Assembly (NCBI RefSeq): GCF_024707545.1
Contig: NZ_CP062229.1
Location: forward strand, 1,961,001-2,025,000
DNA: 64,000 nt
Direction: 5' to 3'
Source: Mesorhizobium onobrychidis
Lineage (GTDB): Bacteria > Pseudomonadota > Alphaproteobacteria > Rhizobiales > Rhizobiaceae
Shown: positions 14,699 to 64,000 of the stretch, piece after piece
Layout: every line of letters begins with the position of its first letter
How positions within the stretch are numbered: position 1 is the first letter of the stretch
Translations under genes and position numbers: made by a program
Notes under the pieces: model-generated
What the model was told of the DNA's origin: nothing
The model's database searches: none
What the model saw: the letters and a program-made list of their open reading frames with translations, nothing else

Positions 14699-15102
14699 TG
14701 ACCGATGCCTGTGTTGAAAGGAAGTGACCAGAACGGGACTACCACGAAAGCTTGTGGTTGAACTGTAACTGCGGCGCAACACATGGAAGCAAAATGCACC
14801 GTTCGGTTGTGGCGGTGATCCTGGTTCCTTTTTTGCGCGCGTGACTCTTGCCGACGTCTGCGCCGCCGAGGAGTCGCTGTACGTGAATTGCAGTAGCGCG
14901 CGTGCGAAGCGCGGCGGGAAGGGGGCAGGCGTTATCTGCACTCCAGGCGCGAGCAGTGCGGTGACAGGTGCGCCGGGAGACCGGCAAGGAGTAGGTGGTG
15001 GAAGTCCACTGCGATGAAGGATTAGCAACCCGCATCGGCCCCGAGCCGTGCGTTGTCGGTCGCGAGGCGGGAACGAAGCGTCGGCAGGGGAACGAGCGTC
15101 AC
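14699..15102. other. Intergenic region upstream of the porin gene
   Basis: About 400 bp without a convincing gene. It should hold the porin promoter and 5' leader; I see no unambiguous -35/-10 pair, repeat or RNA structure. Confidence 0.5.
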
Positions 15103-15456
15103 CTACTTCTCCCGATACAAGATCATACCGGCGTGATGCAGCACGCCGTCAATGAACGTTCCGTCAGCGGTAAAGCCGGTGTCGTCCCAATAGTCGATGT
15201 GATTTCCTCGGATCTCATAGCGCCCCTGGTACGCGCTCTCACGGTTTCCGCGCGCTTCGTCATAGCGACCGTTTGCAAGCAAGTCGTGGCGGATATGGCC
15301 ATCGGCCGTGACCCACATCCCGACATAGGGATGGCTTCCCGAAGGTTGGATAACTGTATTTTGCTCGGCATTCATCTGGGCGAGACCTTTCTGCAGGGGT
15401 AAGACGGCCGCGCCGGCAACAAGCACGGCAGCGGCAAGTATCGAAATCTGTTTCAT
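15103..15456 (-). CDS. Atu4866 family secreted protein
   Basis: 117 residues from the ATG at 15456 (SD gaggagc). Signal peptide MKQISILAAAVLVAGAAVLP, then the Atu4866 domain: SHPYVGMWVTADGHIRHDLL, GRYDEARGNRESAYQGRYEI, DYWDDTGFTADGTFIDGVLH. The family is a small lipocalin-like beta-rich fold of unknown function. It lies directly downstream of the frameshifted CMD-like gene, so a shared transcript with the SDR gene is likely. A decayed copy of its last 190 bp is present at 13718-13907. Confidence 0.87.
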   Translation of the reverse strand: MKQISILAAAVLVAGAAVLPLQKGLAQMNAEQNTVIQPSGSHPYVGMWVTADGHIRHDLLANGRYDEARGNRESAYQGRYEIRGNHIDYWDDTGFTADGTFIDGVLHHAGMILYREK

Positions 15457-61505: not shown

Positions 61506-61934
61506 TTACGTCGCGTGTGCGCCGCCGGGTACGACCACGCCGGACATCGCGATTCCGACGGTTGCCGGATCTTCCTTCAGCGCCGCGTCCGCGAGCGAGA
61601 CCACACCCACCAGGCGCTTGTCGCGATTGAGGACGGGCAACCGCCTGACCTGGATATCGCCCATGTTCTGGACGACGTGCTCGATATCTTCGTCCTCGAA
61701 GCAGTATTTGACATCCTCGGTCATCACGTCGCGGACTGTCGCGTTGCCGTTCTTGCCTTCGGCGACGGCACGTACGACGATGTCACGGTCAGTGATCGTT
61801 CCGACGAGTCGGTCGTTTTCTCCGACGGGCAGGAATCCGACATCGTCAACCGCCATTCGTTTCGCGATCTTCTGCAGCGACTCGCCAGGACTGGCGAGAT
61901 GGACGTTGGGGGTCATTATCTCAGCGACTTTCAT
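61506..61934 (-). CDS. CBS-pair domain protein
   Basis: 142 residues from the ATG at 61934, two CBS motifs: MKVAEIMTPNVHLASPGESL and VRDVMTEDVKYCFEDEDIEH, with LPVGENDRLVGTITDRDIVV and LPVLNRDKRLVGVVSLADAA. A regulatory adenine-nucleotide-binding module without a catalytic partner. Last protein gene before the RNA cluster. Confidence 0.92.
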   Translation of the reverse strand: MKVAEIMTPNVHLASPGESLQKIAKRMAVDDVGFLPVGENDRLVGTITDRDIVVRAVAEGKNGNATVRDVMTEDVKYCFEDEDIEHVVQNMGDIQVRRLPVLNRDKRLVGVVSLADAALKEDPATVGIAMSGVVVPGGAHAT

Positions 61935-62253
61935 GGTCAATCTCCCTGTTCGCGCCCAGAACGGCAACAGCGCCTGCGGTCGTCGAGCGATATTGGCTGA
62001 AGGACTTTGTTGAGGGCCTCAGGTCAGTCGCGTTGCGACGCTCGCTCGGCGGTCCCGTTCTTCGCTGATGGAACTAACAACCGGGCCGAATGGTTCCCGG
62101 CGTGATCCTTGAAGTTTCCCGCTTTGTTCCCATATAAGCTGACAAGACCGGAGACGGTTCCGCCGCACGGGGTCGGTTAGCGCCTGGCTTGTGCGGCTCA
62201 AGTTTTCATGGTGGGAACCGTCGGATCGTGACGATCCAGCCGGTCCACCAGGA
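61935..62253. other. Region upstream of the RNase P-like gene
   Basis: About 320 bp with no gene. Contains a candidate plus-strand promoter (62109-62138) and a GGATCG-TGA-CGATCC hairpin (62223-62237), 16 bp before P1 of the RNase P-like RNA. Confidence 0.5.
62109..62138 (+). promoter_or_regulatory. Candidate promoter of the rnpB-like/tRNA array transcript
   Basis: TTGAAG (62109-62114), 18 bp, TATAAG (62133-62138). The predicted start would give a leader of about 110 nt before the RNase P-like RNA. Confidence 0.4.
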
Positions 62254-62554
62254 GAGATCAGATCTCCGGGCTGCCGCGCATTGAGCGACGAACGTCGCGG
62301 AGCGAGGAAAGTCCGGGCTTCCCGACACACCCCAGCAGGTAATGCCTGTCCGCCGCAAGGCGAGCCACGGCAACAGAGACGAGCCGTCCAGTCGGACGGG
62401 TGAAACGGGCGACAGGGTGGGGGAAGCAACCGCAAGAAGTGCCCTGTGACCTGTGTCGGGGAGGGCCGTGGTGGCGGGCAAGGAGGCGCCTGGCGACAGG
62501 CGTCCAAGAGGAATGGCAGTCCTCGACAGAACCCGGAACAGGGGATCTGGTCTC
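62254..62554 (+). ncRNA. Compact RNase P RNA-like gene
   Basis: 301 nt. P1 GAGATCAGATC (62254-62264) pairs with GATCTGGTCTC (62544-62554). P2 GGGCTGCC pairs with GGCAGTCC (62515-62522). CR-I GAGGAAAGTCCGGGCT at 62304-62319 and CR-V ACAGAACCCGG at 62526-62536 form P4. CCCGACACA (62321-62329) pairs with TGTGTCGGG (62452-62460). CAGG-TAATG-CCTG (P8), CGCC-GCAA-GGCG (P9), CAACAGAGA, a short P12 (CCGTCC/GGACGG) and P18 with a GCGA loop are present. P13/P14 and P16/P17 cannot be found; type A RNAs are usually near 400 nt. Whether it replaces or adds to a standard rnpB elsewhere cannot be seen here. Confidence 0.85.
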
Positions 62555-62587
62555 AAGCATCTCGTGGCGAGAACCGGCAGACGCGCA

Positions 62588-62673
62588 GCGGACGTGGCGG
62601 AATCGGTAGACGCAGCCGGCCTAAACCCGGCCGGGCATTCCCGTTGCGAGTTCGAATCTCGCCGTCCGCACCA
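62588..62673 (+). tRNA. tRNA-Leu (anticodon UAA), atypical C33
   Basis: 86 nt with encoded CCA. Acceptor GCGGACG/CGTCCGC, A discriminator, D-arm GCGGAATCGGTAGACGC, anticodon stem GCCGG/CCGGC with loop CCTAAAC (UAA), long variable arm (CGGG/CCCG), T-arm GCGAG-TTCGAAT-CTCGC. Position 33 is C instead of the near-invariant U. 33 nt after the RNase P-like RNA. Confidence 0.93.
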
Positions 62674-62698
62674 AATCGGGCCGCACTAAATCGAATAT

Positions 62699-62790
62699 GG
62701 AGGGGTGGCAGAGCCCGGTTGAATGCGCCCGCCTCGAAAGCGGGTAGGCCTGCAAGGGCCTCGGGGGTTCAAATCCCTCCCCCTCCGCCA
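62699..62790 (+). tRNA. tRNA-Ser (anticodon CGA)
   Basis: 92 nt with encoded CCA. Acceptor GGAGGGG, anticodon stem CCCGC/GCGGG with loop CTCGAAA (CGA), long variable arm, T-loop TTCAAAT. 25 nt after tRNA-Leu. Confidence 0.95.
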
Positions 62791-62812
62791 GCGGACAGAC
62801 CCTTGGATATTC

Positions 62813-62897
62813 GGAGGGGTGGCCGAGCGGTTAATGGCAGCAGTCTGTAAAACTGCCCTCTTAGAGTTCGTAGGTTCGAATCCTACTCCCTCCACCA
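62813..62897 (+). tRNA. tRNA-Tyr (anticodon GUA)
   Basis: 85 nt with encoded CCA. Acceptor GGAGGGG/TCCCTCC, anticodon stem GCAGT/ACTGC with loop CTGTAAA (GUA), variable arm of the class II type, T-loop TTCGAAT. 22 nt after tRNA-Ser(CGA). Confidence 0.95.
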
Positions 62898-62951
62898 GTC
62901 ATTGTCCGTCAAGCACTGCAAGACGTGGCGTCCCTAGAAGTGAAGCGTGAC

Positions 62952-63024
62952 GGCGCATGGGAGAACGGCTATCCAGCGGACTGCAACTCCGTATATGTCG
63001 GTTCGAGTCCGGCTGGCGCCTCCA
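62952..63024 (+). tRNA. tRNA-Cys (anticodon GCA), weakened acceptor stem
   Basis: 73 nt with encoded CCA. Anticodon stem GCGGA/TCCGT with loop CTGCAAC (GCA), T-arm GTCGG-TTCGAGT-CCGGC, U73 as required for cysteine. The acceptor GGCGCAT faces TGGCGCC, so the two inner pairs (A-G, U-U) are mismatched. Confidence 0.85.
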
Positions 63025-63057
63025 AATTATCCACAACTGATCAACAGCTGACAAAAT

Positions 63058-63140
63058 GGAAGAGTGGCTGAAGGCGGCGGCTTGCTAAGCCGTTATGCGG
63101 GGACATCCGCATCGAGGTTCGAATCCCTCCTCTTCCGCCA
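63058..63140 (+). tRNA. tRNA-Ser (anticodon GCU)
   Basis: 83 nt with encoded CCA. Acceptor GGAAGAG/CTCTTCC, anticodon stem GCGGC/GCCGT with loop TTGCTAA (GCU), variable arm TATGCGGGGACATCCGCATC, T-loop TTCGAAT. Last gene of the array. Confidence 0.93.
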
Positions 63141-63678
63141 GCGGCATGAGGCTGTGGATTAACCGGAAACGAGCATTGCTGTCGTAACCCGATCCCTGCA
63201 GCCAACATGGCTCGATCTGGTTGAAACCCGGGAACGCGGCACGATGCCAAGCCGGCAATGGAATTAGCAGGTTCTTTCACCAAAAGGTGCTTGACACGAA
63301 ACCGATGCTTCCCATATACGCCTCACCAACGAGGGCGGTGCGCCGCTGGCGACGAAGCGGTTCGCTTCTAGATCTGCCCTCTGCGAAATTCAAGAGAGCC
63401 GCGTGAGCGACACTCGAACGGCCCCGAAGCCAAAAGCGTACGGGCCACGACATCGCGTCTGCGATGTCTGTTCTTTGACAATTGAATATTGAAGAAAGAG
63501 AAACGTGGGCGGCAGAGTCCTGCTGAACCTTTCATTCCGCCAGGGATGGGAGGTTCGAACGAGACTTTGGCGGACACGTTTTGAGAGAATAAGTCTACCA
63601 GGGCACGCGAGTGTCCAGGTGTGAATGTTCTCGTCAATTCAAAGCGTGACCAGATAAAGCCAAATCAAAGTCTTACTA
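63141..63678. other. rrn operon leader region
   Basis: About 540 bp between the tRNA array and 16S. Contains the promoter at 63291 and a long transcribed leader with a boxA-like TGTTCTTTGAC (about 63469) followed by GAATATTGAAGAAAGAGAAA, as in rhizobial rrn leaders. No gene is seen. Confidence 0.7.
63291..63320 (+). promoter_or_regulatory. Strong rrn promoter
   Basis: TTGACA (63291-63296) and CATATACG (63313-63320), 16-18 bp apart depending on the -10 register. Perfect -35; about 350 bp of leader to the mature 16S. Confidence 0.8.
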
Positions 63679-64000
63679 AACTTGAGAGTTTGATCCTGGC
63701 TCAGAACGAACGCTGGCGGCAGGCTTAACACATGCAAGTCGAGCGCCCCGCAAGGGGAGCGGCAGACGGGTGAGTAACGCGTGGGAATCTACCCATCTCT
63801 ACGGAACAACTCCGGGAAACTGGAGCTAATACCGTATACGTCCTTTTGGAGAAAGATTTATCGGAGATGGATGAGCCCGCGTTGGATTAGCTAGTTGGTG
63901 GGGTAATGGCCTACCAAGGCGACGATCCATAGCTGGTCTGAGAGGATGATCAGCCACATTGGGACTGAGACACGGCCCAAACTCCTACGGGAGGCAGCAG
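63679..64000 (+). rRNA. rrs: 16S ribosomal RNA, 5' part (runs off the window)
   Basis: Begins near AACTTGAGAGTTTGATCCTG and runs through CTACGGGAGGCAGCAG at the right edge (first about 320 nt). The short V1-V2 with GCGCCCCGCAAGGGGAGCGG matches Mesorhizobium-type 16S. The mature 5' end is placed by family consensus. Confidence 0.97.

Follow-up and report, generated by a model that had tools for sequence, protein, structure and literature searches.

A compact RNase P RNA gene of phage type, here named rnpB2, lies with five tRNA genes directly upstream of the rRNA genes (rrn) of Mesorhizobium onobrychidis, and it is damaged. It is likely that rnpB2 and its tRNA genes form a phage-type RNase P RNA-tRNA unit that was captured once, kept for a time and is now decaying. 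RNase P RNA normally comes from one essential gene that is inherited vertically. The window referred to below is the whole 64,000-nucleotide stretch that was analysed (contig NZ_CP062229.1, positions 1,961,001 to 2,025,000), with coordinates counted from its first letter. Its genome is G000, and other genomes and contigs are given by their G and L numbers.

Identity and structure of the compact RNA

A covariance search gave an end-to-end match of the window RNA to RF00010 at 62258-62554 (+), with 132.3 bits and an E-value of 2.5e-40, which is above the gathering score of 100 bits and bears out the RNase P RNA core recognised in the initial annotation. The gene was placed at 62254..62554 (+) from this match together with the tree and the lesions described below. 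Helices P1-P12, P15, P16 and P18 could be placed on the RNase P fold, with only five pairs in P10/P11, and the CR-I, CR-II and CR-III patterns are all present in the window copy. A pattern check found an intact CR-I, including the 5' strand of P4 (GAGGAAAGTCCGGGCT), at 62304..62319 (+), and the species alignment shows an intact GGT motif at 62470..62472 (+), preceding the 3' strand of P15. P13 and P14 of typical class A RNAs are absent, CR-III continuing directly into the P11 strand, and P17 is absent as well. The initial annotation was thus right to report P13, P14 and P17 as lacking but mistaken in adding P16, which is present (GCCCU/AGGGC). The loop of P16 is able to pair with J5/7 to give an extended P6 pseudoknot of 8 bp, CCGACACA/UGUGUCGG, whose 5' strand (CCGACACA) lies at 62322..62329 (+) and whose 3' strand (TGTGTCGG), inside the P16 loop, lies at 62452..62459 (+), both placed by the sub-domain fold and helix placement. 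At least seven P6 pairs were obtained in 67 of 20,000 shuffles of both strands.

The structure is based on RNase P homology and on the sub-domain fold, since free-energy folding misfolds the whole RNA; the sub-domain fold itself ranks fourth among the suboptimal structures and lies 1.0 kcal/mol above the best one. Pairing is kept in 98.4% of 797 cells over nine species, compared with 34-47% in slid controls, a comparison that favours the structure because the structure was drawn on one of the sequences compared. Changes on both sides of a pair were found at just two of 91 pairs, which was equalled in 22 of 500 shuffles. With covariation so scarce and the control leaning towards the structure, the helices of rnpB2 rest mainly on homology.

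The tRNA array and its surroundings

The initial annotation had described five same-strand tRNA genes close behind the RNA, and ARAGORN confirmed their order and spacing, all on the + strand: tRNA-Leu (TAA) at 62588..62673 (54.2 bits), tRNA-Ser (CGA) at 62699..62790 (53.9 bits), tRNA-Tyr (GTA) at 62813..62897 (56.6 bits), tRNA-Cys (GCA) at 62952..63024 and tRNA-Ser (GCT) at 63058..63140. The last two are damaged: the Cys gene scores 42.9 bits where G016 and G061 reach 53.7 and 53.9, and the Ser-GCT gene, with its shortened D-arm, scores 33.8 bits where these two genomes reach 58.9 and 56.9. The first tRNA gene follows rnpB2 after 33 nt and the gaps between the tRNA genes are 25, 22, 54 and 33 nt. 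A common transcript for rnpB2 and the tRNAs is plausible. A candidate promoter, TTGAAG-17 nt-ATATAA, may be present at 62109..62137 (+) in the nine-species alignment; the surrounding region 62106-62141 diverges by 0.125, no slower than the flanks, and the candidate is absent from the output of a consensus promoter scan.

An array of eight tRNA genes, Pro-TGG, Leu-TAA, Ser-CGA, Ser-GGA, Tyr, Leu-CAA, Cys and Ser-GCT, is found in G016, G061 and M. wenxiniae. Three tRNA genes precede the contig end in the carrier stretches L034, L035 and L184 and six in L187 (M. temperatum), while G127 has Cys and Ser-GCT alone after the compact RNA. At least two tRNA genes are linked to the compact RNA in all nine carriers. 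The array of the window genome is without Pro, Ser-GGA and Leu-CAA. Of 53 tRNA matches in this genome five are within the array, and the remainder covers each of the eight array anticodons, so that the array shows two traits of mobile tRNA arrays, tight spacing and redundancy with the host's own tRNA genes. When the array tRNAs of M. wenxiniae were compared with the nearest tRNA of G000, seven of the eight were only 72-80% identical, the exception being Pro at 92%. The best of the phage tRNAs compared was no closer than the host tRNA for most, with the exceptions of Leu-CAA (Phosso, 78%) and Ser-CGA (CcrSC, 79%). Since the best host tRNA is usually equal to or closer than the phage tRNAs compared, the array tRNAs indicate no source.

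Downstream, the rrn leader (63314..63677, +) marks where homology to non-carrier Mesorhizobium starts in the locus comparison, and it is followed by the start of the 16S rRNA gene (63678..64000, +; RF00177), which leaves the window and is context outside the unit. The unit should therefore end upstream of about 63314, a boundary based on few genomes as a match was obtained in only six of 21 and parts of rrn read N. In the non-carriers G065 and G029 an opposite-strand open frame lies upstream of the rrn leader, and no tRNA was seen upstream of rrn in the four non-carrier loci examined. The unit is upstream of rRNA genes in G000, which has one rrn match, and in G016; the contigs of the other carriers stop at or soon after the array.

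The upstream neighbour, at 61506..61967 (-), encodes a CBS-domain protein (Pfam PF00571; genus DNA search) whose membership of the unit is not shown. Among the 81 genus genomes, 26 of which gave any match, this gene has at least 89% DNA identity only in the same six that carry the compact RNA. An insertion of more than 250 nt between the CBS gene and rnpB2 (about window position 62098) is present in G061, M. wenxiniae and M. temperatum and absent from the other six carriers. The five neighbouring window proteins that were scanned are a CBS protein, a hydrolase, a LysR, an HlyD and an RND transporter, and no mobile-element or phage gene is among them; they lend nothing to the mobile-element origin suggested in the initial annotation. 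Elsewhere in the window, 15001-15125 (+) matches the domains D1D4-6 of a group II intron (RF02005, 77.6 bits).

Distribution of the compact form

The initial annotation proposed looking for a second, standard rnpB, and one was found: a search of the 7.55 Mb genome (two contigs) with RF00010 gave a 398-nt gene of 307 bits on the same contig, 1.38 Mb away. The window RNA is therefore an extra, reduced copy. In searches with stricter filters, by which weak matches are lost, an RF00010 match was found in 118 of 121 relatives and two matches in eight of the 121, and 363 of 385 genomes of Alphaproteobacteria gave a match, only G000 having two among the matches listed. Five of the eight two-match genomes belong to the genus (G000, G016, G020, G052 and G061), their second match being 297-303 nt long and scoring 125-153 bits. 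The remaining cases are two standard-sized matches in G095, a genome of another family with 6% contamination, two weak pieces in G107 and a split copy in G120.

A DNA search of the genus gave matches in ten of 81 genomes: G000 itself, five others in which most of the RNA aligns at 91-94% identity, and four in which the match is confined to 25-55 nt. In a family draw of 297 genomes the only match at an E-value of 1e-8 was G000 itself. A scan of GTDB r220 contigs with a 20-base motif gave ten stretches, seven of which are the compact RNA in Mesorhizobium, from M. wenxiniae, M. ventifaucium, M. temperatum, M. prunaredense, M. escarrei and two MAGs. The three hits outside Mesorhizobium aligned over 23 nt, over 29 nt and, for the third, not at all, and were judged to be chance. 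The compact form is thus present in six of 81 Mesorhizobium genomes and in three further species, giving nine carrier genomes in all. The initial annotation had allowed that all Mesorhizobium rnpB genes might have the short form and this location, which fails as only these six of the 81 carry the short form. By 3 kb of core DNA beside the standard rnpB the six carriers are also the six nearest genomes, G000 and five others at 93-96%, the next match of more than 2 kb being at 82% and one partial match of 1 kb at 84%. Inheritance within one Mesorhizobium clade after a single entry is the best reading of these comparisons.

Past constraint and probable decay

The mean pairwise divergence of rnpB2 is 0.052 (95% interval 0.039-0.066), compared with 0.120 (0.098-0.142) for non-coding flanks and 0.122 (0.094-0.154) for third positions of the CBS gene. 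As rnpB2 diverges less than half as much as its flanks, the unit was formerly constrained by purifying selection. Among the five tRNAs the divergence is lowest for Tyr (0.014) and highest for Ser-GCT (0.090); the spacers lie between 0.062 and 0.178.

The initial annotation counted CR-V/P4 in the recognisable core, but P4 is not intact in the window copy. Alignment with relatives shows that CR-V with the 3' strand of P4, at 62526..62539 (+), is broken, the CTT of CCCGGCTT being missing. CR-V reads ACAGAACCCGG-AAC here, ACAGAACCCGGCTTA in seven of eight relatives and GGCCTA in G127. With CTT (CUU in the RNA) gone from the 3' strand, three pairs of P4 are lost. P4 is the active-site helix in known RNase P, and given that it lacks three pairs the window RNA is probably catalytically dead. 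CR-I and the P4 sequence CCCGGCTTA are retained in all 14 standard Mesorhizobium rnpB genes examined, with differences just outside that sequence in two.

Both strands of P4 are intact in G016, G020, G052, G061, M. wenxiniae and M. temperatum. Other lesions are the loss of the P1 3' strand in G016, changes to CR-I, CR-III and CR-V in G127, an altered P4 5' strand in M. ventifaucium, an altered first base of the GGU in M. ventifaucium and in M. temperatum, a 3-nt insertion and one missing P12 base in M. wenxiniae, and the loss of a base after the P15 strand with a CR-IV change in G020. The elements examined are free of lesions in G052 and G061, which also have the top RF00010 scores, 152.7 and 150.7 bits. 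The best reading of this pattern is that the unit is decaying separately in several lineages. The working, self-contained tRNA supply unit imagined in the initial annotation is not supported for the window genome, where P4 is broken, two of the five tRNA genes are damaged, three of the eight are lost and there is a host gene for all eight anticodons.

Viral relatives

The only general scan of viral contigs was made in IMG/VR with a single 16-base CR-I pattern and gave 54 stretches, some of them near-copies of one another (e.g. L051/L085 and L063/L072). The pattern also catches suspected bacterial flanks (e.g. L056, L058 and near-copies), which were retained in the counts and, exact duplicates aside, in the tree described below. 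At least five tRNA genes are present in 18 of the 54 stretches. RF00010 scored above cut-off in 19 of 23 stretches put to Rfam (11 of 15 and eight of eight), the exceptions being L060, L065, L068 and L098.

The best full-length match of rnpB2 is viral, L059, at 70% identity over 259 nt and 129 bits, followed by a second viral contig, L094, at 81 bits. The best of 31 alphaproteobacterial rnpB genes gave 44 bits. Cores were cut from 43 of the 54 stretches, and a tree was made with 74 non-identical cores (83 before removal of exact duplicates), comprising 31 host, 34 viral and nine compact sequences. The compact clade has support of 98/97 and groups with L059, L060 and L094 at 87/87, inside a wider viral group at 89/100, whereas the host cluster, supported at 100/98, also takes in three viral rows. 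Thus rnpB2 has the clustering of the phage-type group, with viral RNAs and not with host rnpB, in a tree whose long branches are flagged, whose bootstrap had not settled and whose host rnpB genes are all alphaproteobacterial. Five of eight flanking proteins of L059 and L094 match a named PHROG, namely MazG, DNA polymerase, head morphogenesis, tail sheath and an RNA-binding protein. The guess of a phage origin made in the initial annotation therefore gains from the L059 match, the viral tree group and the phage genes beside L059 and L094.

Other viral RNAs differ in size and setting. Full-size RNase P RNAs of 277-300 bits (L069:800-1149, L093:8153-8517 and L099:6330-6684) lie in viral tRNA arrays as if in one precursor, ending 0-2 nt from a flanking tRNA. 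Only 183-223 nt separate CR-I from CR-V in L065 (CR-I at 467), L068 (1450), L098 (1248), L060 (4551-4566, -) and L087 (8597); the short RNAs of L065, L068 and L098 are inside long, closely packed phage tRNA arrays, and these three and that of L060 are below the RF00010 cut-off. Next to other viral RNase P RNAs ten proteins were examined; they included a portal in L098, L065 and L051 (with a terminase too in L098), a ligase and a Ro-like protein in L070, ribonucleotide reductase in L087 and glycosyltransferase in L060, with weak or unnamed matches in L072 and L093. Ro-like proteins (phrog_850, RNA-binding) are encoded near viral RNase P RNAs at L094:6732-8390 and L070:389-1867.

Scanning viral contigs for exact motifs of the Mesorhizobium form gave nothing, and with motifs common to L059 the scans gave L059 only. 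The RNA and array searched against phage records gave 23 records, matching in tRNA stretches only. At the protein level Sinorhizobium phage Phosso and Agrobacterium phage Atu_ph07, both with rhizobial hosts, come closest among isolate phages; a profile search of the first 390 kb of Phosso found nothing, and none of eight isolate jumbo phages gave an RF00010 match under the stricter filters. An RNase P-like match in Microcystis phage MaAM05 (L223, MW495066.1, 115323-115668) lies amid fliM, fabI, mtgA and glyS and was set aside as these annotated neighbours look bacterial, suggesting bacterial DNA in the record.

Origin and fate of the unit

Could rnpB2 simply be a duplicated and trimmed copy of the host rnpB? 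The two are in the same genome and belong to the same RNA family, but BLAST to the host copy gives only short pieces, the best being 35 nt at 83%, L059 is closer, the host gene clusters with alphaproteobacterial genes well away from rnpB2, and the low identity of seven of the eight array tRNAs to host tRNAs also speaks against copying within the genome. A host duplication is thus disfavoured and highly improbable. A source in another bacterium, a plasmid or an integrative element with a tRNA array, the viral likeness then coming from an unsampled common bacterial source, is unlikely but deserves more weight. Reduced RNase P RNAs without P13, P14, P16 and P17 are described for CPR bacteria (PMC8172020), and a horizontal origin has been suggested for additional homologues of RNase P RNA in two mycobacteria (PMC9569102); the restriction of the tree to alphaproteobacterial host genes and the lack of a match in the eight jumbo phages point the same way. 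Against such a source, full-length similarity is to phage contigs, all seven GTDB motif hits that align over the RNA are Mesorhizobium, no plasmid record matches the L059 RNA and the compact RNA has only 41-nt matches, in six plasmid records. The RNA and array together gave 72 plasmid records, the best 40 of the 72 matching tRNA stretches only.

As to its present state, rnpB2 might still be working throughout the clade, the window strain included, as a domesticated second RNase P with a special task, either its own array or tRNAs with a long variable arm. The low divergence relative to the flanks, the retention in all six clade members sampled, the conserved pairing over nine species and the lesion-free, highest-scoring copies of G052 and G061 would suit such a task. 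Yet there are lesions in G000, G016, G127, M. ventifaucium and M. temperatum while all 14 standard genes keep both strands of P4, and the array is eroded in G000 and G127, which makes a working second RNase P improbable.

We therefore prefer capture followed by decay. Several observations weigh against this reading: the lone tRNA genes near L059 and L094, the lack of a match in the eight jumbo phages and in the searched part of Phosso, the lack of phage genes among the five scanned neighbours, array tRNAs that indicate no source, and the 87/87 support and other limits of the tree. A phage-type RNase P RNA with its tRNA array would have been acquired a single time, by the ancestor of one Mesorhizobium clade, and settled directly upstream of rrn, the direction of transfer, from phage to Mesorhizobium, being inferred. 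In a phage, a cassette of this kind would ensure that tRNAs mature while the infection runs. While the unit still worked, the RNase P RNA most likely shared a single transcript with some eight tRNA precursors, and the RNA, presumably with the host RnpA as its protein partner and acting as the catalyst, would trim the 5' leaders of the array tRNAs. Purifying selection would have acted for a time, followed by separate decay in several lineages. In the window genome rnpB2 is probably dead with its P4 broken, so the host's ordinary RNase P would process whatever array tRNAs survive and are transcribed. A wider proposal, which we put forward tentatively and with rather less than even confidence, is that some phages encode a minimal RNase P RNA inside tRNA arrays, freeing pre-tRNA maturation from the host RNase P RNA, and that one Mesorhizobium lineage captured such a cassette of ribozyme plus substrates at its rRNA operon, used it as a second RNase P and then lost it.

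The finding of a phage-type second copy linked to its substrates, alongside RNase P RNAs within phage tRNA arrays, suggests that phages are carriers of RNase P RNA too and that the ribozyme can move into chromosomes. The lesion-free RNAs of G052 and G061, and the shorter ones in phage arrays, are naturally reduced forms with which the minimal size of the ribozyme can be probed.

Comparison with known systems

Among the matches listed for open-access full text, a scope mostly outside subscription journals and bioRxiv, no paper on phage-carried RNase P RNA was recognised. A term search of the main text of the huge-phage paper PMC7162821 found no mention of RNase P or rnpB, and PMC11143913, in its passages on phages, mentions phage tRNAs as RNase P substrates only.

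The likeness of rnpB2 to class A of RF00010 lies in the full-length match above the gathering score, in P1-P12, P15, P16 and P18, in CR-I to CR-III and in the GGU. It differs in its length of about 300 nt, against 398 nt for the rnpB of the same genome, in having no P13, P14 or P17, in the extended P6 and in the broken P4. Since the 3' strand of P4 lacks CTT, the window copy is classed as a damaged homologue and not as a working member of class A. Typical bacterial RNase P RNAs are of 340-420 nt according to PMC4919922. P13 and P14 are also lost from the CPR forms (PMC8172020) and from archaeal type A RNAs (PMC4919922); the CPR forms differ in being the sole rnpB of their genomes as described, and the archaeal RNAs are also without P18, which rnpB2 has.

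The nearest prior report found is PMC9569102, which describes additional homologues of RNase P RNA in Mycobacterium austroafricanum and M. sp. YC-RL4. These resemble rnpB2 as extra copies beside a standard rnpB with an odd specificity domain and a suggested horizontal origin, and differ in belonging to another phylum and in that the section concerned describes no linkage to a tRNA array.

The trn operon of Anabaena, on a megaplasmid, and the tRNA-Ser cluster of Caulobacter phage CcrSC likewise consist of tightly spaced tRNA genes that are redundant with those of the host. The CcrSC cluster holds Ser-CGA, Ser-GGA and Ser-GCT, and CcrSC gave no RF00010 match. We know of no RNase P RNA in mobile or phage tRNA arrays such as these.

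Among the sequences compared, the closest relatives remain those on the IMG/VR phage contigs L059 and L094, with L061, L072, L070 and others as more distant viral RNase P RNAs. L059 and L094 share with rnpB2 the junction without P13/P14 and the tree group, and L059 also has matching P6 strands and the similarity over most of the RNA. The two differ from rnpB2 in setting: rnpB2 is chromosomal and not in a phage genome, lying upstream of rrn with five to eight tRNA genes behind it, whereas each of theirs has one nearby tRNA gene, before the RNA, this being the only one in the 15 kb around the L059 RNA and in the 8.5 kb of L094.
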